From Pseudomonadota bacterium (GTDB lineage Bacteria > Chloroflexota > UBA6077 > JAJPHF01), in assembly GCA_021325365.1 (NCBI GenBank), contig JAJPHF010000138.1, positions 1-22,700 on the forward strand: DNA of 22,700 nucleotides, read 5' to 3'. Positions 3,630 through 22,700 of this stretch are shown piece by piece. Every line of letters starts with the position of its first letter. Position 1 is the stretch's first letter. Below the pieces are notes generated by a model that was given only the letters and a program-made list of their open reading frames with translations, did not search any database and had not been told where the DNA came from. A program made the position numbers and the translations under genes.

Positions 3630-4394
3630 ATGGCGACCGGGCGGCTCGCGGGCAAGACGGCGCTCGTGACCGGCGGCGGGCGTGGCAACGGCCGCGCGAT
3701 CGCGCTCGCGCTCGCCCGCGAGGGCGCCGACGTGGCCGTGCACTACGTGGAGCACGCCGCCGCCGCCGAGGAGGTGGCCGTGGCCATCCGCGCGCTCGGG
3801 CGGCGCAGCCTCGTCGTGCGGGCGGACGTGGCGCGGCGCCCCGCGGTCGAGGCGATGGTCGAGCAGGTGTACGCCGCCTGGGGCCGCCTCGACGTGCTCG
3901 TGAACAACGCCGGCGTGCTCAAGCGCACGCCCTTCCTAGCGATTGACGACGCCGAGTGGGACTGGATGCTCGACGTCAACCTGCGCGGCTGCTTCCTTGT
4001 CGGCCAGACGGTGGCGCGGCGCATGGTGGCCCAGGGCGGCGGCGCCATCGTCAACGTGTCGTCGGTCGGGCAGAAGCTCGCGGGCCGCGGCGTGGCGCAC
4101 TACTGCGTGTCCAAGGCCGGCGTCGGCATGCTCACGAAGGCGATGGCGCTCGAGCTGGCGCCCCTCGGCGTGCGCGTGAACGCCGTCTGCCCCGGCACGA
4201 TCGTCACCGACCTGAACCGCGCCGACGCCGGCCGACCCGAGTGGGTCGAGGCGCAGTACAGCCGCCTCGCCGTGCGCGCCCTCGGCGAGCCCGAGGACGT
4301 GGCGGGCGCCGTCGTCTTCCTGGCCGCCGAGCAAGAGTCGCGTCTGGCCGTCGGCACCAGCATCTACCTCGACAACGGCCGGGCCATCTGGTAG
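3630..4394 (+). CDS. Short-chain dehydrogenase/reductase (SDR)
   Basis: This 254-aa protein is a classical SDR oxidoreductase using NAD(P)H. It shows the cofactor motif TGGGRGNG at residues 14-21, NNAG at 92-95, the catalytic serine in VNVSS (144-145) and the YxxxK pair Y158/K162, followed by PGTI. No clearly NADP-specific basic residue is visible after the second strand, so cofactor choice is open. I chose the ATG at 3630 because the GGCGGGG tract lies 8 bp upstream. A GTG at 3624 overlapping the previous stop is an alternative that adds two residues. It probably reduces or oxidises the product of the preceding ThDP enzyme, an inference from the operon. Confidence 0.92.
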   Translation: MATGRLAGKTALVTGGGRGNGRAIALALAREGADVAVHYVEHAAAAEEVAVAIRALGRRSLVVRADVARRPAVEAMVEQVYAAWGRLDVLVNNAGVLKRTPFLAIDDAEWDWMLDVNLRGCFLVGQTVARRMVAQGGGAIVNVSSVGQKLAGRGVAHYCVSKAGVGMLTKAMALELAPLGVRVNAVCPGTIVTDLNRADAGRPEWVEAQYSRLAVRALGEPEDVAGAVVFLAAEQESRLAVGTSIYLDNGRAIW

Positions 4395-4438: not shown

Positions 4439-5599
4439 ATGAGGACGATGGCCCTGGGAATGGTCCTGCTGACACTGGTCGCCTGCGGGCCGGCCGCGGC
4501 CCCCGCGCCGGCGGCCCCGCCGCGCGGCGCGGCGCCCGCCCCGGCGGCCCCGCCTGTCGCCTCCTCCCCGGCAGCCGCGGCGCCGAGCGCGGAGCCCTCG
4601 GCCGCGCTGCAAGCGATCGTCGAGGGCGCGCGCCAGGAGGGCCAGCTGCAGCTCATGTGGTCCGCGCACTCCTTCGGCGGGCCGGACGGCGTGGCGCGGC
4701 TAGCCGCCGCCTTCAACCGGCTCTACGGCCTCAACCTGAACGTGCAGTTCACCGTCGGCCCGTCGATGCCCGAGATGGCGAGCAAGGTGGCGCAGGAGGT
4801 GGCGGCCGGGCGTCCCGCCTCGGTGGACGTGGCGCTCGGCGCCGTGGCCAACATGGCCTCGCTGGTCCGGGCGGACGCGCTCCAGCCCGTCGACTGGCTG
4901 GCCTGGGCGCCGAACGTGCAGGACCCGCGGCTGCTGGCGCCCGACGGCGTAGCGGTCCAGATCGCGTCGCGCATGCCCGGCATCACCTACAACACGAACC
5001 GCGTGCGGCCCGACGAGGTGCCGGCCACCATGCAGGACCTGTTGAAGCCGCAGTACAAGGGCCGCATCGCCTCCACGCCCTACGGGGCGAACTTCGACTT
5101 GCTCGCCAGCCCGGAGCTGTGGGGCGAGCAGCGCGTAACGGACTACGTCGGCCGCCTGGCCGACCAGGTGAGCGGCCTGATCCCTTGCGGCGCGGTGGAG
5201 CGCGTCATCGCCGGGGAGTTCGACTTTTTCGCCCTCGACTGCGGTAGCTACGAGGCGCACGCCTGGCAGCAGAAGGGGGCGCCCGTGGGCCACGTCATCC
5301 CCAGCGACGCCGCGATGATCAACTACCTGTACATGGGCGTGCCGCGCAACGCCGTCCACCCGAACGCGGCCAAGCTCTGGATCAACTTCATGCTCACCCG
5401 CGAGGCACAGGACATGGAGTACGAGGCCGAGACCGTGGACCATCACCTCCTGCCCGGCTCGAAGACCGCCGGGGAGGTCACCGCCCTGCAGGCGAAGGGC
5501 GTGCAGTTTGCCGAGATCGACGTGCAGTTCATCCAACGCCAGGACGACCAGGAAGTGAGCCGGGTGCGCCAGACGCTGCTCCGCGAGCTGCAGCGCTGA
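4439..5599 (+). CDS. Iron(III)-type ABC transporter substrate-binding lipoprotein
   Basis: The 386-aa protein begins with a short lipoprotein signal whose lipobox LVAC places the lipidated cysteine at residue 16. A 40-residue Ala/Pro linker follows, then a periplasmic-binding-protein fold similar to the AfuA/FbpA (Fe3+/polyamine) class, with ITYNTNRV, PQYKGRIA and a C-terminal NAAKLWINFMLTREAQ segment. In Chloroflexota and Rhizobiales such proteins often bind organic acids rather than iron, which fits its place after catabolic enzymes. AGAGGAG lies 7 bp before the ATG. No permease or ATPase gene follows, so it must use a transporter encoded elsewhere. The 44-bp gap to the dehydrogenase suggests one operon. 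Confidence 0.88.
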   Translation: MRTMALGMVLLTLVACGPAAAPAPAAPPRGAAPAPAAPPVASSPAAAAPSAEPSAALQAIVEGARQEGQLQLMWSAHSFGGPDGVARLAAAFNRLYGLNLNVQFTVGPSMPEMASKVAQEVAAGRPASVDVALGAVANMASLVRADALQPVDWLAWAPNVQDPRLLAPDGVAVQIASRMPGITYNTNRVRPDEVPATMQDLLKPQYKGRIASTPYGANFDLLASPELWGEQRVTDYVGRLADQVSGLIPCGAVERVIAGEFDFFALDCGSYEAHAWQQKGAPVGHVIPSDAAMINYLYMGVPRNAVHPNAAKLWINFMLTREAQDMEYEAETVDHHLLPGSKTAGEVTALQAKGVQFAEIDVQFIQRQDDQEVSRVRQTLLRELQR

Positions 5600-5608
5600 C
5601 GACCCGAT

Positions 5609-5630
5609 GGCCGGCGGGCGCCCGCCGGCC
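5609..5630 (+). terminator. 10-bp GC hairpin ending the catabolic operon
   Basis: GGCCGGCGGG (5609-5618) and CCCGCCGGCC (5621-5630) form a perfect stem, 9 bp after the binding-protein stop, followed by CTATT. It probably ends the upstream operon. Confidence 0.65.
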
Positions 5631-5711
5631 CTATTGCCTCAGCCCGGTGCGCGCGTCTGAGCCGGGTCAAGGGCCGGCCAGCCGCCGCGCCGATCGCCCG
5701 CGCGGCTCGCC

Positions 5712-10050: not shown

Positions 10051-10890
10051 CTAACTGCCCGTGCCGCTGCCCGTCGTGCCACCGCCGTTCGCCGCGCCGG
10101 CGCCACTGCTGGGACCTCCCGTCGTGCCCACGCCACCGGTCGTGCCGGCGTTGCCCGGCGAGTTGGCCGCGGTGCCGGCGCCCGTCCCGCTCGTGCCGTT
10201 GCCCGCACCGCTGCTCATGCCGTTGCCCGTGCCGCTGCCAGCGCCACCAGTCGCGCCGCTGCCAGTGCCCATCGGCTGACAGTTCGCCGCGCCGAACGCG
10301 CCGGGACTCGTGGTGCCCGTGTTGGTGCCCGAGGTGGCGTTGCCGCCCTCGGTGCGGCTACCCATCTCGCTGCTGCCCGGCACCTCGCGGTACGTGCCCG
10401 CGCCCGGCGAGCCGCCCTGCGCCCCGCCGCTCCCGGTCATGCCGACACCTGGCGAGCCGGGTCCGCCGCTGCCGCCGTTCGCGCTAGCGCCGCCCGTTGC
10501 CGGGGACGAGCCGGCGCCGCCGGTCACACCGCTGGCGCCGGTGCCGCCCGCCGTGCCAGGCGCCGCGCTCGTCGAGCCGCTGGCCCCCGTCGCCGCGCTG
10601 CCAGTCGTGCCGCTGCCCGCGCCGCCTGTGCTCGCCACCCCGCCGCTGCCAGGGGCTCCGGGCCCGTAGCAATCGGAGCGGCTCAGGTTGTTGCCCGCGG
10701 TCGTGCTCTGGCTGCCGGCGGCGCTGCTGCCGCTACTGGTAGCGCCCGACGGCTGGTTCTGGGTCGTCGTAGCCGGCGTGCTGGCCGGGGCCGCACCCGT
10801 CGCGCCCTGCGCGCAGGCTGACCCGGCGAGCGAGACGGCCACAATGCAGCCGAGCGCCGCGTACTTGAGCCACTTCTCGTCTAACGTCAC
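10051..10890 (-). CDS. Secreted Gly/Ser/Thr/Ala-rich low-complexity protein
   Basis: The 279-aa protein starts at a GTG with GGAGG 8 bp upstream on the minus strand. Residues 1-29 form a Sec signal peptide (KWLKYAALGCIVAVSLAG, then an ACA cleavage site before QG). A lipoprotein reading at the same cysteine is possible but its lipobox is poor. The rest is almost entirely Gly, Ser, Thr and Ala in short irregular GTG/GSG units, with two isolated cysteines (in SDCYGPG and AANCQPMG) and a short charged island YREVPGSSEMGSRTEGG. No fold is expected. It could be a surface, wall- or matrix-associated polypeptide. The GTG-initiated frame has a coherent signal peptide, which supports it over the long frames on the other strand. 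Confidence 0.75.
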   Translation of the reverse strand: MTLDEKWLKYAALGCIVAVSLAGSACAQGATGAAPASTPATTTQNQPSGATSSGSSAAGSQSTTAGNNLSRSDCYGPGAPGSGGVASTGGAGSGTTGSAATGASGSTSAAPGTAGGTGASGVTGGAGSSPATGGASANGGSGGPGSPGVGMTGSGGAQGGSPGAGTYREVPGSSEMGSRTEGGNATSGTNTGTTSPGAFGAANCQPMGTGSGATGGAGSGTGNGMSSGAGNGTSGTGAGTAANSPGNAGTTGGVGTTGGPSSGAGAANGGGTTGSGTGS

Positions 10891-11228
10891 GTTCTCTGCC
10901 TCCACCCGTGCAACATGCCCCACTTTGGGGCCGCGTTAGCGGCTATCACATACATCTGCTGGAATCTCGCTGTCCATCCTCCTTGTAGCCTGCCCCGTGT
11001 CACTCGCGCGGCAACACGTTTGCAGTTCGATGCACGAGCCGTACCATGTGCGCCCGCTCCTCGCCACGATTCCAACCGGTCTAGGCAAATTCCAAGACAA
11101 TTGCGCTATGTCCTCAACATTCGCTTAACTTTCCACACGAACGGCCTTCGTTGCCGGCGCCGTATCCGGCACGCTCTCTGCGCCTGTGCTCTGGCACACA
11201 GCCGTAATCACCAGGGAGACAGGCGACC
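10891..11228. other. Divergent intergenic region between Gly-rich gene and P450
   Basis: About 340 bp, clearly less GC-rich than its surroundings (for example around 10960-11140). It must hold the start signals for the minus-strand Gly-rich gene and the plus-strand P450. Partial matches such as TTGCGC at 11101 followed by TAACTT after 19 bp are too weak to call. A small inverted repeat at 11152-11171 (TGCCGG/CCGGCA) is also present. Confidence 0.45.
11185..11198. promoter_or_regulatory. Possible operator upstream of the P450
   Basis: TGTGC (11185-11189) and GCACA (11194-11198) are mirror half-sites around TCTG, ending 30 bp before the P450 ATG. Position and symmetry suit a repressor such as a TetR- or GntR-type protein. 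No regulator gene lies nearby, so this is a weak call. Confidence 0.3.
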
Positions 11229-12518
11229 ATGGCCCAACCTGCCAAACAAGACCAGCTGCCGCCGACGCTCACCGCCGGCGCCACGGCGACGAGCCCGGTG
11301 ATCCCGCCGGCGACCATGCGCTTCGCCCCCTACGCCTACTACACCGCCATGCGGCGCGACCGTCCCGTGGCCCACGACGACCGCTACCATCTGTGGAGCG
11401 TCTATCGGTACGAGGACGCACGGCGCGTCCTCACGGATTGGCAGGCGTTCTCGTCGCGGCGTGACATCCTCGGGCTCGCCCGCCGCCCGGGGATGGAAGA
11501 CCTGCGCCGGCGGCAGAGCCTCATCACGGTGGACCCGCCCCGCCACCGGCAGCTGCGAGATCTCGTCTCGCGCGCCTTCACGCCGCGGGCGATCGCCAAC
11601 CTCGAGGCGCGCATCACGGCGCTCACGAACCAGATGCTCGACGCGGTCGTCCCAACCGGCCGGATGGACCTGATCGACGACCTCGCCTACCCGCTGCCCG
11701 TCACGGTCATCGCCGAGATGCTCGGTGTGCCGAGCGAGGACCGCCCGCGGTTCAAGCGCTGGTCCGACCAGCTGGTCGGCGCGGCGGACGACCTCTATAT
11801 GGAGGACGCGGCCGTCCTCGCCGCGGCCTCGCGCCGGCTGCGCGAGGAGATGGACACCTACTTCTGCGACGTCATCGCGCGCCGACGGGCCGAGCCGCGC
11901 GACGACTTGATCACCGGGCTGGTCTTCGCCGAGGTCGAGGGCGAGCGCCTGTCCGACGACGACATCCTCGCGTTCTGCGCACTCCTCCTCGTCGCCGGGA
12001 ACATCACCACCACCAACCTGATCGGGAACGCGATCCTCTGCCTGCTGGACCACCCGGAGCAACAGGCCCGCGTCCGCGCCGATCCAACGCTCGTTCCCAC
12101 GCTGGTCGAGGAGGTGCTGCGCTACGAATCGCCCGTCCAGGCGGTCGGGCGCGTGGCGGCGCGCGACGTCGAGCTAGGCGGCCAGACTGTCCCGCGGGGC
12201 GATCTGGTGTTGGCCTGGATCGGCTCGGCCAACCGCGATCCGGCGATCTTCCCCGATCCCGATCGCTTCGACGTGGCCCGAACGCCCAATCCGCACCTCG
12301 CCTTCGGCCACGGCATCCACTTCTGCCTGGGCGCCCCGCTGGCGCGGCTGGAGGGGCGGATCGCGCTGGCGATCCTGCTCGATCGGCTGCAGGACGTGCA
12401 GCGCGCCGACTCGGGCCCACTCGAGCCCACGAAGGGCTTCATCCTGCACGGGGTCAAGCACCTGCCGTTGCGCTTCCGCGCCCGTTCGGTGGCGCAGGCC
12501 CCCGGGCGGGAGCGCTGA
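11229..12518 (+). CDS. Cytochrome P450
   Basis: The 429-aa protein is a soluble bacterial P450 of CYP107-like type without a membrane anchor. The heme-binding segment is FGHGIHFCLGAP with the axial ligand C366. The K-helix ExxR is E295/R298 in VEEVLRYE, and HPEQQARVRADP and DPDRFDVARTPNPHLAFG are also standard. The I-helix reads LLLVAGNITTTN (residues 252-263). Residue I259 stands where most family members have the acidic residue before the proton-relay threonine (T260). GGGAG lies about 12 bp before the ATG. Electrons would come from a ferredoxin and reductase not encoded here. It stands alone and is convergent with the NMT1-like gene, so its substrate is open. Confidence 0.95.
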   Translation: MAQPAKQDQLPPTLTAGATATSPVIPPATMRFAPYAYYTAMRRDRPVAHDDRYHLWSVYRYEDARRVLTDWQAFSSRRDILGLARRPGMEDLRRRQSLITVDPPRHRQLRDLVSRAFTPRAIANLEARITALTNQMLDAVVPTGRMDLIDDLAYPLPVTVIAEMLGVPSEDRPRFKRWSDQLVGAADDLYMEDAAVLAAASRRLREEMDTYFCDVIARRRAEPRDDLITGLVFAEVEGERLSDDDILAFCALLLVAGNITTTNLIGNAILCLLDHPEQQARVRADPTLVPTLVEEVLRYESPVQAVGRVAARDVELGGQTVPRGDLVLAWIGSANRDPAIFPDPDRFDVARTPNPHLAFGHGIHFCLGAPLARLEGRIALAILLDRLQDVQRADSGPLEPTKGFILHGVKHLPLRFRARSVAQAPGRER

Positions 12519-15404: not shown

Positions 15405-15481
15405 CACGGTCGCAGCGGCGCGGCGGCGGAACAGCGGGAGCACGAAAATGTTGAGCAAATGTTGAGCGGTCACGGTCGCAG
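15405..15481. repeat. CACGGTCGCAG direct repeats flanking the operator
   Basis: CACGGTCGCAG occurs at 15405-15415 and again at 15471-15481, 66 bp apart, on either side of the tandem operator. The distance equals six 11-bp units, so both copies face the same side of the helix as the operator repeats. It may be chance in GC-rich DNA. Confidence 0.35.
15446..15467 (+). promoter_or_regulatory. Tandem 11-bp operator upstream of kimA
   Basis: AAATGTTGAGC is present twice with no gap (15446-15456 and 15457-15467). One helical turn per repeat, read as a 7-base TGTTGAG core plus 4-base spacer, is the layout bound by OmpR/PhoB/KdpE-type winged-helix response regulators. It ends 97 bp before the kimA ATG. 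The same element, in degenerate form, occurs before the receiver gene that leads into kdp. Confidence 0.6.
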
Positions 15482-15498
15482 GCCCCGCGTGGCCAGCG

Positions 15499-15504
15499 GA
15501 TAAT
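15499..15504 (+). promoter_or_regulatory. Possible -10 element of kimA
   Basis: GATAAT matches 5 of 6 bases of the -10 consensus in otherwise GC-rich DNA, and no -35 hexamer lies at the right distance. With a start near 15511 the tandem operator would cover about -65 to -44, a position typical for an activator. This is a tentative reading. Confidence 0.4.
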
Positions 15505-15563
15505 TCTAAACTGGCCGTACTTTCAGGCGTTTCGGCCCAATCTGGACATCGGCGAGGCAGCGG

Positions 15564-17705
15564 ATGGCTGAGGACCAGGACCAGACCTCGCAGCGCCGCG
15601 GTCCGGCGCTCACGCCCTCGACGCCGGAGCTGGAGTGGCGCGAGATCGTGCGCGGCCCCCGTCCAGGCGACGTACACGTGCGGATCGGCACCCACCGGGC
15701 GTTCCGTCGGCAGCCCGGCGGCTTCCTGGCCCCCCGGCCGGAGGCGCTGGAGCCGCAGGGCGGCCTGGGACGGCTGTGGCACCTGCTGCGGCGCGCGCTC
15801 GTCGGCGCCCCGATCGCGACCGCCCAGGAGATGCAAGAGCGCCTCAACAAGATCAGGGCGCTCGCGGTGTTCTCCTCCGACGCGCTCTCCTCCGTGGCCT
15901 ACGGTCCCGAGGAAACGATGCGGGTGCTGGTCCTGGCGGGAGGCGGCGCGCTCGCGCTGACGATGCCCATCTCCATCGCGATCGTGGTCCTGCTGGCGAT
16001 TGTCGTCATCTCCTATCAACAGACGATTCGGGCCTATCCCTCGGGCGGTGGCTCCTACATCGTCGCCAACGACAATCTCGGCCGCATCCCGGGTCTCGTC
16101 GCCGCCGCCTCGCTGTTGATCGACTATGTGCTGACGGTATCGGTGTCGATCGCCTCCGGGGCCGATGCCCTGGTCTCGGCCTTCGACGCGCTCCTGCCGT
16201 TCAAGCTGGTGCTGACCATCGCCGCCGTCCTGTTGATCATGCTCGCCAATCTGCGCGGGATCCGCGAGTCCGGCACGATCTTCGCGCTGCCCACCTACGT
16301 GTTCATCGCCAGCATCCTCGGGCTCGTCGCCGTCGGGGCGTTCCGCGCCGTCACCGGGCAGTTGATACCGGTGCCGCCGACCCAGCCCGTCGTGGCCGCT
16401 CAGCCGCTCACGCTCTTCCTGCTGCTGTCGGCGTTCGCCCAGGGCTGTTCTGCCATGACGGGAGTCGAGGCGGTGTCCAACGGCGTGCCCGCCTTCAAAC
16501 CACCCGAGTCCCGCAATGCCCGGATCACCCTGATCTGGATGGGCACGCTGCTCGGGACGATGGTGCTCGGCGTCGGCTTCCTGGCCAGCCATCTGGCGAT
16601 CGTGCCCGATCCCACCGAGGCGGAGACGGTGGTGAGCCAAATTGCCCGCGCCACCATCGGCGACGGGCTGTTCTACTACGTGCTGCAGTTTGCCACGGCG
16701 CTGATTCTCGTCTTGGCGGCAAACACGAGCTTCGCCGACTTTCCCCGGCTCGCCTCGATCCTGGCGCGCGACCGGTTCATGCCCAGCCAGTTCGCCTTCC
16801 GCGGGGATCGGCTGGCCTTCACCACCGGCATCGTGGCCCTCGCCCTACTCGCGATCGCCCTGCTCGTCGGGTTCCGGGGGAGCGTGAACGCGCTGATCCC
16901 CCTCTACGCGGTGGGTGTGTTCAGCTCCTTTACCCTGTCCCAGGCGGGGATGGTGATGCACTGGCGGCGCCTGGGCGGCCCGGGTGCCCAGCGCAGCATG
17001 GTGATCAACGGCGTCGGGGCGGTCGCCACGGGGATCGTGACGCTCGTGATCGCGGTGACGAAGTTCGAACACGGGGCCTGGATGGTCATCATCCTGATCC
17101 CCATCCTCATCGCGCTCTTCCTCGCGATTCACCGCCACTACCAGCGGGCTCAGGAGCAGCTCCAGGCCGAGACGCCGATCCGGCCCGAGGCGGTCCACTT
17201 GCGGGTGATCGTGCCCGTCTCGGGCCTGAACGTGCCGGCGCGGCAGGCGCTCGCCCTGGCGCGCGCCATCTGCGAGCACCCGGCCGCGCTCTACGTCGCG
17301 CAGACGACCGAGGACGGCGACAAGCTGCGCCGGGAGTGGCACGCGGAGCAGGTGCCGGTGCCACTGGCGATCATCGAGTCCCCCTACCGCTCGTTGGTCG
17401 GGCCGATCCTCGCGTACATCGATGCCGTGCGTCAGGCGCATCCGAAGGACACGCTCATGGTCATCCTGCCGGAGTTCGTGCCCTCTCACTGGTGGGAGCA
17501 CTTCCTCCACAACCAGACCGCGTTCCGCCTGAAGGCGGCGCTGCTCTTCCGGCCCGGCGTGACGGTGACGAGCGTGCCCTACCTGCTGCGGCCAGCCGGC
17601 GTGGCCAGCGAGAACGGCGGCACGCCCACACCAGCCGGCGCTGCTGCGGCGCCTGAGCCGGTCGCGCCAACGCCCCCCCGAGACCCAGCCCGCGAGCGCG
17701 ACTAG
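15564..17705 (+). CDS. kimA: KimA-type potassium importer (APC superfamily)
   Basis: The 713-aa protein is an APC-superfamily transporter with about twelve helices (about 120-525) and a C-terminal cytoplasmic domain (about 540-680). It closely follows Bacillus KimA, a proton-coupled high-affinity K+ importer. SSDALSSVAY gives D106 and Y113, and DYVLTVSVS gives D187, Y188, T191 and S195. T299 (AMTGVEAVSNG) and Y448 (LIPLYAVG) match the remaining K+/H+ positions as I remember them from the KimA structure. The soluble end carries PEFVPSHWWEHFLHNQ and RLKAALLFRPGV, also KimA-like. The N-terminus is about 70 residues longer than in Bacillus and the tail is Pro/Ala-rich. It stands alone with its own control region, upstream of kdp. 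An amino acid permease is the less likely alternative. Confidence 0.85.
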   Translation: MAEDQDQTSQRRGPALTPSTPELEWREIVRGPRPGDVHVRIGTHRAFRRQPGGFLAPRPEALEPQGGLGRLWHLLRRALVGAPIATAQEMQERLNKIRALAVFSSDALSSVAYGPEETMRVLVLAGGGALALTMPISIAIVVLLAIVVISYQQTIRAYPSGGGSYIVANDNLGRIPGLVAAASLLIDYVLTVSVSIASGADALVSAFDALLPFKLVLTIAAVLLIMLANLRGIRESGTIFALPTYVFIASILGLVAVGAFRAVTGQLIPVPPTQPVVAAQPLTLFLLLSAFAQGCSAMTGVEAVSNGVPAFKPPESRNARITLIWMGTLLGTMVLGVGFLASHLAIVPDPTEAETVVSQIARATIGDGLFYYVLQFATALILVLAANTSFADFPRLASILARDRFMPSQFAFRGDRLAFTTGIVALALLAIALLVGFRGSVNALIPLYAVGVFSSFTLSQAGMVMHWRRLGGPGAQRSMVINGVGAVATGIVTLVIAVTKFEHGAWMVIILIPILIALFLAIHRHYQRAQEQLQAETPIRPEAVHLRVIVPVSGLNVPARQALALARAICEHPAALYVAQTTEDGDKLRREWHAEQVPVPLAIIESPYRSLVGPILAYIDAVRQAHPKDTLMVILPEFVPSHWWEHFLHNQTAFRLKAALLFRPGVTVTSVPYLLRPAGVASENGGTPTPAGAAAAPEPVAPTPPRDPARERD

Positions 17706-17891
17706 CGCGCAACCCGACGACTCCTCGCCTGGCCCCGAGCCTGGGGCGCGTGCCCTCCAGAAGCTGACGCAGGCCCCCAGGCCGCACCGCCTTCTCCTCC
17801 CATCGCGTCCCCGCGGGACAGGCTGCGCTCCGCCGTCGCGGGAGCTCTAGCCGGCCCGCTCAAGATGACGGTCACTTCCTGCCCTGCCCCC
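17706..17891. other. Non-coding stretch after kimA
   Basis: The first part of the 301-bp gap between kimA and the response regulator. Only short stems are seen (for example GCCCC/GGGGC at 17732-17747). No ORF or RNA gene is supported. The gap continues with the second operator and the response-regulator leader, in which TTGACC at 17929-17934 could be a -35 box but lacks a -10 partner. Confidence 0.4.
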
Positions 17892-17913
17892 CAATGTTGA
17901 GCAAACGTTGATT
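17892..17913 (+). promoter_or_regulatory. Second, degenerate copy of the tandem operator
   Basis: CAATGTTGAGC followed directly by AAACGTTGATT repeats the kimA operator with 17 of 22 bases identical, including an unbroken run of 13 (AATGTTGAGCAAA). Its TGTTGA...CGTTGA core ends 96 bp before the chosen ATG of the response regulator, almost the same distance as at kimA. A shared regulator is the simplest reading. Confidence 0.6.
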
Positions 17914-18006
17914 CGCCCGGCTGGGCCGTTGACCCGGTGTTTAGCGGTCGTGCCCGAGAATCAAGGGAGCGCTGTGGGAACCGCGCCGGGGCCGCTGGAG
18001 GCGAGC

Positions 18007-18450
18007 ATGAGGACAGGTATTCATGAGCCGGCGGGCGACGTAGCGGATCGGCCAGCGGTTGGGACGCCGCGCAAGTACCAGCGCGTGTTGGTCGTCGACG
18101 ACGCGCCTATCTTTCGGAGCGTCATCGCCCGCAATCTCGCGTCGCGCGGCTACGCGGTCCGTCAGGCGGAGAACGCGGCGGCCGCGCTGGCGGCGCTGGC
18201 CGACGAGGCGCCCGATCTGCTGCTGCTCGACATCAACCTGCCGGATCGCACGGGATGGGACGTGCTCCGTGACCTGGCCGCCACCGGGCGGCAGGTGCCG
18301 ACCGTGGTGCTGTCAGCCGTGCGGGTGAGCCCGGAACGGCTCGCCGAGTTCCGGCCGCTCGCCTACTTACCCAAGCCGTTCCCCATCGAGGCATTGATTC
18401 GCCTGCTGGACAACGGCACGGCGGCGGCGGTCGAGAGCGCTCCGGACTGA
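18007..18450 (+). CDS. Stand-alone receiver-domain response regulator
   Basis: The 147-aa protein is a CheY-like receiver with no output domain. The acidic pair is D31-D32 in VVDDAP, the phosphoacceptor is D75 in LLLLDINLPD, the switch serine is S103 in VVLSAV, and the lysine is K123 in YLPKPF. A 24-residue disordered N-terminus precedes it. I chose ATG 18007, with GGAGG 5 bp upstream; the frame is open back to a TTG at 17908, but that lies inside the operator. A histidine kinase is not in the window. Its position between two potassium systems suggests a role in K+ control, perhaps as a phosphate sink or protein-binding regulator, but it cannot bind the operator through a known DNA-binding domain. 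Confidence 0.85.
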   Translation: MRTGIHEPAGDVADRPAVGTPRKYQRVLVVDDAPIFRSVIARNLASRGYAVRQAENAAAALAALADEAPDLLLLDINLPDRTGWDVLRDLAATGRQVPTVVLSAVRVSPERLAEFRPLAYLPKPFPIEALIRLLDNGTAAAVESAPD

Positions 18451-18560: not shown

Positions 18561-18662
18561 ATGGGCGACGTGGTGTTCCTGGCGATCACGCTCGCCTTCT
18601 TCGTGGTCTCGTTGGCGTACGCGGCCTACTGCGACCAGTTGATGCCGCGTGCTGGGGCCTGA
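18561..18662 (+). CDS. 33-aa single-helix membrane peptide upstream of KdpF
   Basis: An AAAGGAGG ribosome site 6 bp before the ATG, the best in the window, opens a 33-codon frame. Residues 4-23 form one membrane helix (VVFLAITLAFFVVSLAYAAY), followed by CDQLMPR on what is probably the cytoplasmic side. Its stop is 23 bp before kdpF. As I remember, short peptides of this design, ending in a C-D-[RQ]-[LI] motif, also precede kdpF in actinobacteria, but none has an established function to my knowledge. It may be an extra small subunit of the Kdp complex. Confidence 0.75.
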   Translation: MGDVVFLAITLAFFVVSLAYAAYCDQLMPRAGA

Positions 18663-18685: not shown

Positions 18686-18775
18686 ATGGAGCTGGAGTAT
18701 GTGGTCGGGGGGCTGGTGAGCCTGGCGGTGCTCGTCTACCTCACTTACGCCCTCCTGTACCCGGAGCGGTTCTGA
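18686..18775 (+). CDS. kdpF: KdpF, small subunit of the Kdp potassium pump
   Basis: The 29-aa peptide is one membrane helix with the ending LVYLTYALLYPERF. It has the same length and the same Y-L-x-Y-A-L pattern as Escherichia coli KdpF, which stabilises the KdpABC complex in the membrane. GGGGGA lies 5 bp before the ATG. It is followed by 69 bp before the 122-aa ORF and then kdpA, so the usual kdpF-kdpA order is broken by one extra gene. Confidence 0.9.
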   Translation: MELEYVVGGLVSLAVLVYLTYALLYPERF

Positions 18776-18844
18776 TGCCGCCGCGGGGCCACTGGACGGA
18801 AGCGCCCGGCGCTCGGGTCGAGCGCCGGCGATGACGGTGCAACG

Positions 18845-19213
18845 ATGAAGAATCTCAAGACGACGGTATCGCAGCGCGCGGCCGCGCCGCTCACCCCCGA
18901 CGAGGCGGCGCTGGCGGCGGAGGTAGCGCGCGAGCTGCTCACGCAGCCGGAGGCGGGCGTCACGCGCATCTCGTACGTCGGGCTGCCGGAGCGCCAGGCG
19001 GTGCAGCTCGTCATCGACGCGCGCTACGACGGCTTGCAGGCGCAGACCGCGCGGGGCGCGGCCGGACGGGTGAGCGTCACCCTGACCGCGCCCGCCACGG
19101 CCGCGGCAGCCGCGGCGCCCGCGGCCGTGGCGGGCGCGTGGCAGCGCGCCTGGACGCGGCTGTGGGCCAGCGGCCAGCGCGTCACCTGCCTGCTAGGGCG
19201 GAGAACGACATGA
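18845..19213 (+). CDS. 122-aa Kdp-associated protein of unknown function
   Basis: The frame from ATG 18845 ends in a TGA that shares ATGA with the kdpA start, so translation of the two is probably coupled. Residues 16-35 are an acidic helix (LTPDEAALAAEVARELLTQP). A small beta-rich part follows (VTRISYVGLPERQAVQLVID), then an Ala-rich segment encoded by a long inverted repeat, and an amphipathic Trp-containing end (WQRAWTRLWASGQRV). There is no clear membrane helix or signal. The ribosome site is weak. I know of no Kdp subunit like it. It may be a lineage-specific accessory or regulator of the pump, or its frame may mainly serve to carry the RNA hairpin. Confidence 0.6.
   Translation: MKNLKTTVSQRAAAPLTPDEAALAAEVARELLTQPEAGVTRISYVGLPERQAVQLVIDARYDGLQAQTARGAAGRVSVTLTAPATAAAAAAPAAVAGAWQRAWTRLWASGQRVTCLLGRRTT
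19087..19138 (+). repeat. 20-bp perfect inverted repeat before kdpA
   Basis: Bases 19087-19106 and 19119-19138 are exact reverse complements around a 12-base loop. Nearly every pair is G-C. The hairpin lies inside the Ala-rich codons of the 122-aa gene and ends 72 bp before the kdpA ATG. In RNA it would be extremely stable and could slow ribosomes or polymerase or protect the downstream message. GC-rich Ala codons favour such repeats, but 20 perfect pairs is striking. Confidence 0.6.
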
Positions 19214-20940
19214 CGACTACCGGCATTCTGGAGATCGTCCTCTTCCTGGGCGTGCTGCTCGCGCTGACCAAACCGCTGGGCGCGTACATGGCCCGGGTCT
19301 ACCAGGGCGAGCGGACCTTCCTTGCTCCCCTGCTCGGGCCGGTCGAGCGGCTGTGCTACCGCGTCTGCGGCGTGAACGCGGCGGCCGAGCAAGGCTGGAA
19401 GAGCTACACCGCCGCCATGCTGCTGTTCAACCTGGCCGCCCTGCTGCTGCTGTTCCTGCTACAGCGGACGCAGGCGTTCCTGCCGTTCAACCCCCAGGGG
19501 CAGCCAAACGTGCCACCCGATCTGGCCTGGAACACGGCGGTCAGCTTTACCACGAACACCAACTGGCAGAACTACGCGGGCGAGACCACGCTATCGTACC
19601 TCGTCCAGATGGCCGGCCTCACCGTCCACAACTTCGTGTCCGCGGCGACGGGCATGGCTATCGCCGTCGCGCTGATCCGCGGGCTGGCCCGCCGCAGCGC
19701 GCAGTCGATCGGCAACTTCTGGGTCGACCTCGTCCGTAGCACGCTCTACATCCTGTTGCCGATCTCGATCGTCGGCGCCGTGGTGCTCGTGGCGCTGGGC
19801 ATTCCCCAGAACCTAAATGGCTATACCGACGCCACGACCCTGGAGGGGCTGAGCCAGACCATCGCCCAGGGGCCGGTGGCGAGCCAGGAGATCATCAAGG
19901 AGCTGGGGACCAACGGGGGCGGCTTCTTCAACGCCAACTCGGCGCATCCGTTCGAGAATCCCACGCCGCTCACCAACTTCATCACGAACCTCGCGCTCAT
20001 CCTGATCCCCGCGGGGCTGCTCTACACCTTTGGCCGGATGGTGGGCAGCACGCGCCAGGGCTGGGTGCTCTGGGCCGTGTCGGCCGTCATCCTGGTGCTG
20101 GGCCTCGCGGTCGCGCTGCCGGTCGAGCAGGCGGGCAACCCGCTCCTCACACAGCTTGGCGTCGACCAGGTGCCCTCGGCGCTCCAGGCGGGCGGCAACT
20201 TCGAGGGCAAGGAGGTCCGCAACGGCATCGCCGCCTCAGTGCTCTGGGCGGTGACTACCACGGCCACCTCCTGTGGCGCGATCAACGCCTGGCACGATAG
20301 CTTCCTGCCGGTCGCGGGCATGATCCCGCTCATCAATCTCAAGCTCGGCGAGATCGTGTTCGGGGGCGTGGGTGCGGGGCTCTACGGTCTGTTGATCTAC
20401 GCCATCCTGGCCGTGTTCATCGCCGGCCTGATGGTGGGGCGCACGCCGGAGTACCTCGGCAAGAAGATCGAGTCTTTCGAGATCAAGATGGCCATGCTGG
20501 TCACCTTCGTGCTCGCGCTCAGCGTGCTCGGCTTCAGCGCGCTGTCGGCGAGCGGCGACTGGGGCACGGCACCGCTCGGCAACCCGGGGCCCCACGGGCT
20601 CTCGGAGATCCTGTACGCCTTCGCCTCGACTACCGGCAACAACGGCTCGGCGTTCGGCGGGCTCTCCGGCAACACCCTGTACTACAACACCACGCTTGGG
20701 CTGGCGATGCTGATCGGGCGGTTCTTGATGATCGTGCCGATCCTCGCCGTGGCCGGCTCGATGGCCCGCAAGCGCCGCGTGCCCCCCAGCCTGGGCACCT
20801 TCCCCACGACCGGCCCCGTCTGGGTGGGGCTGCTGACGGGCACGGTCCTGATCGTCGGCGCCCTGACCTACTTCCCGGCGCTGTCGCTCGGCCCGATCAT
20901 CGAGCAGCTCTTGCTGAACGTCGGCAAGACGTTCTCGTAA
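19210..20940 (+). CDS. kdpA: Potassium-transporting ATPase subunit A
   Basis: The 576-aa protein is the K+-selective channel-like subunit of the Kdp pump, with the usual ten-helix SKT (superfamily of K+ transporters) fold. Its four selectivity-filter loops are TNTNWQN (115-121), GTNGGGFF (233-240), TSCGAIN (353-359) and [10 protein letters not shown] (475-484). [20 protein letters not shown] is nearly invariant in the family. GGAG (19200-19203) lies 6 bp before the ATG, which overlaps the stop of the 122-aa gene. kdpB follows after 14 bp. Length and motifs are intact, so it should be functional. It works with KdpB, KdpC and KdpF in the cytoplasmic membrane, usually when external K+ is scarce. 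Confidence 0.97.
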
Positions 20941-20954
20941 CGGAGGCGGAGGCC

Positions 20955-22700
20955 ATGGCCCTGAAAGAAGTCGCGCGAGCGCGCCGCCAAGGGTCGAGCA
21001 TCTGGGACCCGGTCCTCGTGCGGCGCGCGGCCCGTGAGTCGTTCCCGAAGCTCGACCCGCGGCTGATGGCCAAGAACCCGGTGATGTTCGTCGTCGAGAT
21101 CGGCAGCGTCATCACCACGGTGGTGCTCGTCGAGGGCCTCCTCGGGATCCTCGGCGTCAACGTTGGCTTCGTGCTCCAGGTGACGCTCTGGCTGTGGTTC
21201 ACGGTGCTGTTCGCCAACTTCGCGGAGGCCATCGCCGAGGCGCGGGGCAAGGCGCAGGCCGACACGCTGCGGAGCATGCGCAGCGACACGCCGGCCAAGC
21301 TGCTCCAGCCCGATGGCGCGGTGAAGATCGTGAGCTCGACCGAGCTGCGGAAAGGCCACGTCGTCCTGGTCGAGGCGGGCGACCTGGTGCCCGGCGATGG
21401 CGCGGTGATCGAGGGCGTGGCCTACGTCAACGAGGCCGCTATCACCGGCGAGTCGGCGCCCGTGCTCAAGGAGCCCGGCACCGACATCTCCAGCTCGGTG
21501 ACGGGCGGCACGCAGGTGACATCCGACTGGATCAAGGTGGAAATCACCTCGAATCCGGGCGAGACGTTCCTCGACCGCATGATCGCGCTCGTGGAGGGCG
21601 CGAAGCGCCAGCGCACGCCGAACGAGATCGCGCTGTCGATCCTGCTGGCGGGCCTGACGATCGTCTTCCTGCTGGCCGTGGTCACGCTGGAGCCGTTCGC
21701 GATCTACTCGGGCACGGCCGTCTCGACGGTGATCCTGATCGCCCTGCTCGTCTGTCTGATCCCGACCACCATCGGCGCGTTGCTCTCGGCCATCGGCATC
21801 GCGGGCATGGACCGCGTGACCCGCTTCAACGTGCTGGCCACCTCGGGCCGCGCCGTGGAGGCCGCGGGCGACGTGGACGTCCTGTTGCTGGACAAGACCG
21901 GCACGATCACCTTCGGCAACCGTCTGGCGAGCGAGTTCATCCCGATCCGCGGCCACACCGCGGCCGAGGTCGCCCAGGCGGCGTACCTGGCGTCCGTGGC
22001 GGACGAGACGCCCGAGGGCAAGAGCATCGTGGTGCTCGCGCGCCAGCAGGGGCACGTCGTCATGGCGGGCGGCGCCGATGGCAGTGCCACGACCGTCCTG
22101 CCCCCCGACGCGGAGCTGGTGCCCTTCTCGGCCGAGACGCGCATGAGCGGTGTCCGGTTCAATGGCACAGCCATCATGAAGGGGGCCGTGGACGCCGTGT
22201 CCAAGCAGGCGACCGGCGTGCCCGCCGACCTGGAGCCGCACGCGACCCGCATCGCCAGCGAGGGGGGCACGCCGTTGGCGGTCAGCCGCGATGGCGAGAT
22301 CCTCGGCCTGGTGTACCTCAAGGACACGGTGAAGCCCGGCCTGCGCGAGCGCTTCGACGAGCTGCGGCGTATGGGCATCCGCACGATCATGGTCACCGGC
22401 GACAACAGGCTGACCGCCGCCACCATTGCCAAGGAGGCGGGCGTCGACGACTTCGTGGCCGAGGCGAAGCCGGAGCAGAAGATCGACCTGATCCGCGCCG
22501 AGCAGGCCAAGGGCCACCTGGTGGCCATGACCGGCGACGGCACGAACGACGCGCCGGCGCTGGCGCAGGCCGACGTGGGCATGGCGATGAACTCGGGCAC
22601 GCAGGCGGCGAAAGAGGCCGGCAACATGGTCGACCTCGATTCCAACCCGACGAAGCTCATCGAGGTGGTGATGATCGGCAAGCAGCTCCTCATTACGCGC
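20955..22700 (+). CDS. kdpB: Potassium-transporting P-type ATPase subunit B (partial)
   Basis: The first 582 residues of KdpB, the ATP-hydrolysing subunit, are present; the window ends before the last membrane helices. The actuator motif TGES is at 164-167; S167 is the position whose phosphorylation inhibits the E. coli pump at high K+. The membrane motif [14 protein letters not shown] follows. DKTGT places the phosphorylated aspartate at D313, and the nucleotide and hinge motifs VTGDN and [10 protein letters not shown] (526-535) are intact. Two GGAGG copies lie upstream of the ATG; the first (20942-20946) has good spacing. The 14-bp gap to kdpA shows one operon. kdpC, and perhaps kdpD/kdpE, should follow outside the window. 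Confidence 0.97.

Follow-up and report, generated by a model that had tools for sequence, protein, structure and literature searches.

Tandem repeats before two potassium-uptake loci of a Chloroflexota genome, predicted docking sites of a KdpE-type regulator

The window, the whole stretch of 22,700 nucleotides that was analysed, carries two potassium-uptake loci on its forward strand, each preceded by a short tandem repeat (Table 1). The product of the first gene had been taken for a KimA-type K+ importer in a preliminary description made from the sequence alone, and its family match and its closest PDB protein, KimA itself, confirm this assignment. On the kdp side named in the same description, kdpA is present and is followed by kdpB. 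The response regulator announced there does lie before kdpA; however, PF00072 is its sole family match and no DNA-binding domain was found in it, which rules it out as the DNA-binding protein. Of 60 Chloroflexota kdpA upstreams, 23 hold a comparable short receiver ORF (128–204 aa) no more than 650 bp ahead of kdpA; such proteins may serve as a phosphate sink or in feedback on KdpD. Two tiny consecutive membrane ORFs (18561–18662 and 18687–18776), resembling KdpF-type peptides by eye, and a 122-aa ORF matching no Pfam family (18845–19213) occupy the space before kdpA. The kdpDE genes of the organism lie outside the window.

Table 1. Coordinates of the repeats, promoter elements and genes at the two loci
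Feature	Position	Strand	Remarks
kimA-side element	15446..15467	+	Perfect TTGAG pair 15451-15455 / 15462-15466; distal pair of array only
Candidate kimA -10 region	15499..15512	+	GATAAT 15499-15504 or TAAACT 15507-15512; inferred by reading the sequence
kimA, KimA-type K+ importer	15564..17705	+	PF13520; PDB KimA 6s3k, E 8.8e-154
kdp-side distal pair	17897..17912	+	TTGAG-CAAACG-TTGAT
kdp-side proximal pair	17929..17944	+	TTGAC-CCGGTG-TTTAG; exactly 32 bp after distal pair; imperfect
-10-like hexamer GAGAAT	17956..17961	+	11 nt after fourth half-site, register as in other arrays
Receiver-only response regulator	18007..18450	+	PF00072 only; first gene behind array; same place in relatives
kdpA	19210..20940	+	PF03814, E 1.9e-242
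kdpB, cut by window end	20943..22700	+	Open frame; tblastn hits in relatives where kdpB follows kdpA

Re-reading the window places the tandem duplicate of AAATGTTGAGC at 15446–15467 and the element CAATGTTGAGC-AAACGTTGATT at 17892–17913, exactly as first reported. Other details of the preliminary description had to be amended. The two 22-mers differ at four positions rather than five, and the distance of 96–97 bp to the start codons is correct for kimA (96 bp, ATG at 15564) but not for the receiver gene, where it amounts to 93 bp if ATG 18007 is the start. Furthermore, no third copy had been noticed in the window, and two were found: the proximal pair on the kdp side (17929–17944) and a weak pair, TTAAG-N6-TTGAG, on the minus strand at 11113–11128, between a minus-strand gene (10051–10923) and a plus-strand cytochrome P450 gene starting at 11229. 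We judge this last copy to be at chance level because it was found with the spacer, which is not strictly conserved; indeed, pairs with 9 or 10 matches occur 0.53 times per simulated window. The 17-mer TGTTGAGCAAAYGTTGA, spacer included, matches the window exactly at 15449 and 17895, and with up to three mismatches three times, as compared to 0.01 expected, while perfect TTKAG-N6-TTKAG pairs occur on average 0.013 times per simulated window. Among arrays the spacer CAAAY varies, the half-sites and their spacing being the conserved parts.

The window repeats are part of a promoter array of which the preliminary description had seen only a portion, and whose full layout is TTGAG-N6-TTGAG-N16-TTGAG-N6-TTGAG-N11 followed by the -10 hexamer. 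Upstream of the receiver-kdpA cluster, all four half-sites and a -10-like hexamer are present in register, with a half-site score of 18/20; none of 300 Markov-simulated windows reaches 18, their maximum being 16. On the kimA side the element is of a type conserved before kimA in other Chloroflexota, the proximal pair is absent, and no -10 lies in the canonical register (15510–15515), as both candidate hexamers are out of it. Since only the distal pair is kept, the kimA promoter of the window may be weaker or wired differently.

The extent of the array before kimA was assessed with the window KimA, which was used to scan GTDB species genomes, the best 80 of 207 confirmed loci being kept. In many Chloroflexota TTGAG-N6-TTGAG precedes kimA, frequently as two such pairs at a spacing of 32 bp (33 bp in L007 and at L050:6571). 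The preliminary description had pointed to the upstream regions of kimA and kdp orthologues as a place to look for the element, and a part of them does carry it. Among the best 80 kimA loci, 11 of 30 Chloroflexota upstreams score at least 17/20, as compared to 0/48 in other phyla and 0/60 reversed controls, the remaining 19 Chloroflexota upstreams staying below 17/20. In this test L016 was left out, one other-phylum locus was skipped for its short upstream, L003 and L004 were counted among the other phyla, and L033/L034 and L008/L010/L011 are near-duplicates; the arrays of L030, L033, L034 and L007 were missed, being cut by the start estimate or having a spacing of 33. For kdpA, 60 upstreams were taken as a subset of the kdpA places and two under 300 bases were skipped: 15 of the 58 Chloroflexota upstreams reach at least 17/20 (0/116 controls) and 18 at least 16 (4 controls), while 43 remain below 17/20. 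The near-identical L159, L161, L163, L164, L165 and L167 are all within these 15. By eye, L157, L171 and L172 display drifted half-sites (TTGAC, TTGAT, TTTAG, CTTAGCG) with spacing and -10 kept, which suggests half-site drift within a preserved geometry in some further Chloroflexota loci. A universal kdp array found no support, as a clear array is missing from many of the GC-rich upstreams in Chloroflexota and, outside the phylum, from 12 of 16 kdp upstreams.

In L009, L020, L027, L029 and L050 the box and kimA come after an OmpR-type regulator, which is itself preceded by a kinase-like ORF, and in L001 the order is kdpA, kdpB, kdpC, KdpD in two pieces, a KdpE-like regulator, the box and kimA. 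KdpD appears to be split in two loci, with an N-terminal KdpD-USP protein apart from the kinase part (L001 5880–8578; L219 7328–8488).

A scan of relatives together with their downstream genes, also proposed at the outset, was carried out blind to gene context on 301 Chloroflexota genomes, using the pattern TTGAG-N6-TTGAG-N16-TTGAG-N6-TTGAG with up to two mismatches. It returned 56 places in 31 genomes; the reversed pattern returned one. By our own reading of the neighbourhoods, which left out G011:C415:18126, 33 of the 56 places lead into kimA (13, two with a USP gene between), kdpA operons (12, often with a receiver or unnamed ORF between; G082:C3, G129:C260 and G151:C303 were assigned from kdpA coordinates alone), KdpD-type or DUF4118 proteins (6, three of them DUF4118 proteins in which no kinase domain was found) or KdpE-like regulators (2). 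Eight more precede APC permeases. Seven lie beside K+ genes with an unclear target (G180, G315, G194, G010, G011:C451, G011:C99:1827, G001:C489:793) and seven are unrelated or unclear (G245, G295:3554688, G013:3489308, G229, G242, G001:C310, G110:C59). A perfect array stands before one conserved APC permease in six genomes (L117–L122). These permeases are 78–100% identical to the one of L136; for L121, the alignment spans 54 residues at the end of a contig. In L221, an array with three mismatches and its -10 in register precedes kdpD, and another lies between kdpE and kdpA. Arrays are also found before ORFs that resemble Ser/Thr protein kinases by eye (L001 11960 and 12040; L144 3273 and 3404). 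In L216 and L217, short minus-strand ORFs (5219–5668 and 3666–4103, respectively) with no Pfam match come immediately after the array and a KdpE-like regulator, the former resembling the KimA C-terminal domain (30%).

Presence of the array goes with presence of the Kdp pump: of the 31 genomes with an array match, 21 gave a kdpA hit, as compared to 67 of the 270 without (p 3e-6). In ten array genomes, which may be incomplete, kdpA was not detected. For seven of them (G004, G010, G180, G216, G266, G301 and G315), both a KdpDE-like pair and a KimA gene lie close to the array. In G062 kimA is the only one of these genes; a kinase was expected upstream of it, but the ORF there encodes a GGDEF-EAL protein. 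For G229 and G242, the neighbourhoods offered no explanation of the array match.

The -10 hexamer played no part in the selection of the arrays, which were chosen by half-sites alone. In 32 of 45 non-redundant arrays, the distance from the fourth half-site to NANNNT is exactly 11 nt, while any other offset between 0 and 30 accounts for 0 to 8 arrays (binomial p about 1e-31, relatedness ignored). In addition, 54 arrays show a preference for T two bases ahead of half-sites 2, 3 and 4. Counted from the predicted -10, the array position on the kdp side and in these 32 arrays would fit that of the E. coli KdpE site (about -72 to -50), whereas the kimA side is out of register.

In E. coli, the KdpE half-sites TTTATA and TTTACA, separated by a 5-bp spacer, are described as a 23-bp element at -72 to -50 (PMC3264566). 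On the K-12 kdp promoter these half-sites fall at offsets 0 and 11, TTTGC occurs at 32 and 43, and TACCCT occupies 59–64; this promoter shares the five-part register of the Chloroflexota arrays. The two TTTGC motifs of the K-12 kdpF promoter (L228) could form a proximal KdpE site over the -35 that has gone unrecognised. Among 16 kdp upstreams from outside Chloroflexota, those of Mycetohabitans (18/19), E. coli (17) and Lactiplantibacillus (16) score above every one of 60 control geometries and that of Arsenophonus (16) exceeds 97% of them; the remaining 12 are unremarkable.

Which regulator reads the array can be approached through the proteins encoded beside it. In 12 of the 30 returned blind-scan loci the array directly follows a KdpE-like regulator, which in 11 of these comes after a KdpD-type kinase. 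When scanned against NCBIfam, 6 of 7 box-adjacent regulators score highest with the KdpE model, at no more than 258 bits against an equivalog cut-off of 325, and KdpD is the best model for all three kinases scanned, again below the cut-off; the domains of the L154 kinase are DUF4118-HisKA-HATPase. Compared with PDB, one box-adjacent regulator matches E. coli KdpE (4kny, E 1.3e-60). In 13 such regulators the equivalents of E. coli KdpE R200 and T215 are invariant, and R193 is replaced by His in 12, a change that may be connected with the use of TTGAG where E. coli has TTTA(T/C)A.

Alternatively, the array could be the site of another OmpR/PhoB-family regulator, of PhoB, MtrA or RpaB type, which controls K+ genes by chance. 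The 11-bp direct repeat is indeed common in this family, PhoB and OmpR sites being built in this way. The M. tuberculosis PhoP site, described as 7-bp repeats with a 4-bp spacer (PMC4832192), points in the same direction, as do the L137 regulator, whose best model is MtrA (203 bits, 195 for KdpE), and the near tie between models for the regulator at L001:279–1127. We nevertheless consider this alternative unlikely, because most box-adjacent regulators resemble KdpE and have a KdpD-type kinase as partner, kdp, kimA and kdpDE form the core of the targets, and the E. coli KdpE promoter is in the same register. Even less plausible is that the repeats are chance or ordinary promoter sequence requiring no regulator. 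TTGAC and TTGAG do resemble the -35 consensus, and the minus-strand copy at 11113 is of the kind that chance produces; however, four half-sites at fixed spacing recur far beyond the reversed control, the kdp-side score is out of reach of the simulations, and the -10 follows the last half-site by 11 nt instead of the roughly 17 nt of a -35 element. Finally, co-regulation of kimA and kdp at the RNA level by a c-di-AMP riboswitch with the repeats incidental, conceivable since such a riboswitch is described as controlling kdpFABC in Bacillus thuringiensis (PMC6488665), can practically be dismissed, as no Rfam family, this riboswitch included, matches the window at gathering score and the array lies upstream of the phased -10, therefore outside the predicted transcript.

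The preliminary description had suggested a K+-regulon box of the OmpR/PhoB type that KdpE might bind. Its recurrence before kimA and kdp, the reversed control and the E. coli register speak for this proposal, as does the frequent location of the element directly behind kdpDE-like genes, KdpE binding being a prediction. With high confidence, then, we regard the elements as operators of a KdpD/KdpE-type two-component system, and the repeat before both potassium-uptake genes very probably serves as the binding site of a KdpE-type regulator of potassium stress. Against this reading we count the sub-cut-off scores, the R193 replacement, the TTGAG half-site that departs from TTTA(T/C)A, the many low-scoring upstreams within and outside the phylum, the location of kdpDE beyond the window, the incomplete kimA promoter with its -10 out of register, and the seven unrelated or unclear blind-scan matches. 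Each 22-bp element would accommodate one dimer of a KdpE-like regulator of the OmpR/PhoB family, its two direct half-sites (TnTTGAG core) being spaced by one helical turn. In the full form, represented here by the kdp side, two dimer sites would lie 32 bp, or three turns, apart, with 11 nt between the end of the last half-site and the -10. One of the dimers would cover about -71 to -56, the position of KdpE in E. coli, and the other would stand in for the -35 element. Once phosphorylated, KdpE would recruit RNA polymerase as PhoB-type class II activators do and switch on kdpFABC and kimA together under K+ limitation. While repeats, spacing, -10 phasing, conservation and gene context are directly observed, we infer KdpE binding, activation over repression, the K+ signal and the role of the organism's own KdpE.

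The operator type as such is already known; what appears to be new is the doubling of the site in a fixed geometry, KimA as a target, even in genomes where kdpA was not detected, and the broader range of targets, and no prior report of a KdpE box in Chloroflexota or of KdpE control of kimA was found in the open-licence PMC literature. We lean towards the view that KdpE-dependent promoters share an old four-half-site grammar (0/11/32/43, with the -10 at 59) in Chloroflexota, E. coli, Mycetohabitans, Arsenophonus and perhaps Lactiplantibacillus, that a proximal dimer site over the -35, missed so far in the E. coli model, belongs to this grammar, and that Chloroflexota KdpDE acts as a general K+ regulator of KimA, permeases and its own genes, also in genomes without the Kdp pump. 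If so, a KdpE-type regulon would be defined for Chloroflexota, KimA would be tied to two-component control rather than to c-di-AMP only, and K+-stress genes of uncultured bacteria could be predicted from a sequence signature. The textbook E. coli kdp promoter would receive a concrete prediction, namely a possible and apparently new second KdpE site at -35.

Comparison with known systems helps to place the array. It shares with the c-di-AMP riboswitch as described (PMC6488665) that K+ importer genes are tied to one signal, and differs from it in that a riboswitch, of which none was found in the window, acts at the RNA level. The Pho box, with its PhoB sites, consists of OmpR/PhoB-type 11-bp direct repeats close upstream of the -10, with no -35 of its own, and the arrays are likewise 11-bp direct repeats near the -10 without a separate -35. 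On the other hand, they have TTGAG half-sites and K+ gene targets, and TGTCA, from the Pho box half-site TGTCA(T/C) quoted in PMC3264566, does not occur in the window elements. Also close is the E. coli kdp promoter with its KdpE operator as described in PMC3264566. There the half-sites read TTTA(T/C)A, while the window has TTGAG, TTGAT, TTGAC and TTTAG, so that TT and A alone agree throughout; a regular second pair 32 bp on, over the -35, which is not part of the operator as described for E. coli even though TTTGC occurs twice at that place, and further targets such as kimA also set the arrays apart. Nevertheless, both have direct half-sites, two per pair, with an 11-bp period (6 bp plus a 5-bp spacer), T in the first two bases and A in the fourth, a location (predicted for the arrays) at about -72 to -50, and the -10 at the same offset from the half-sites.
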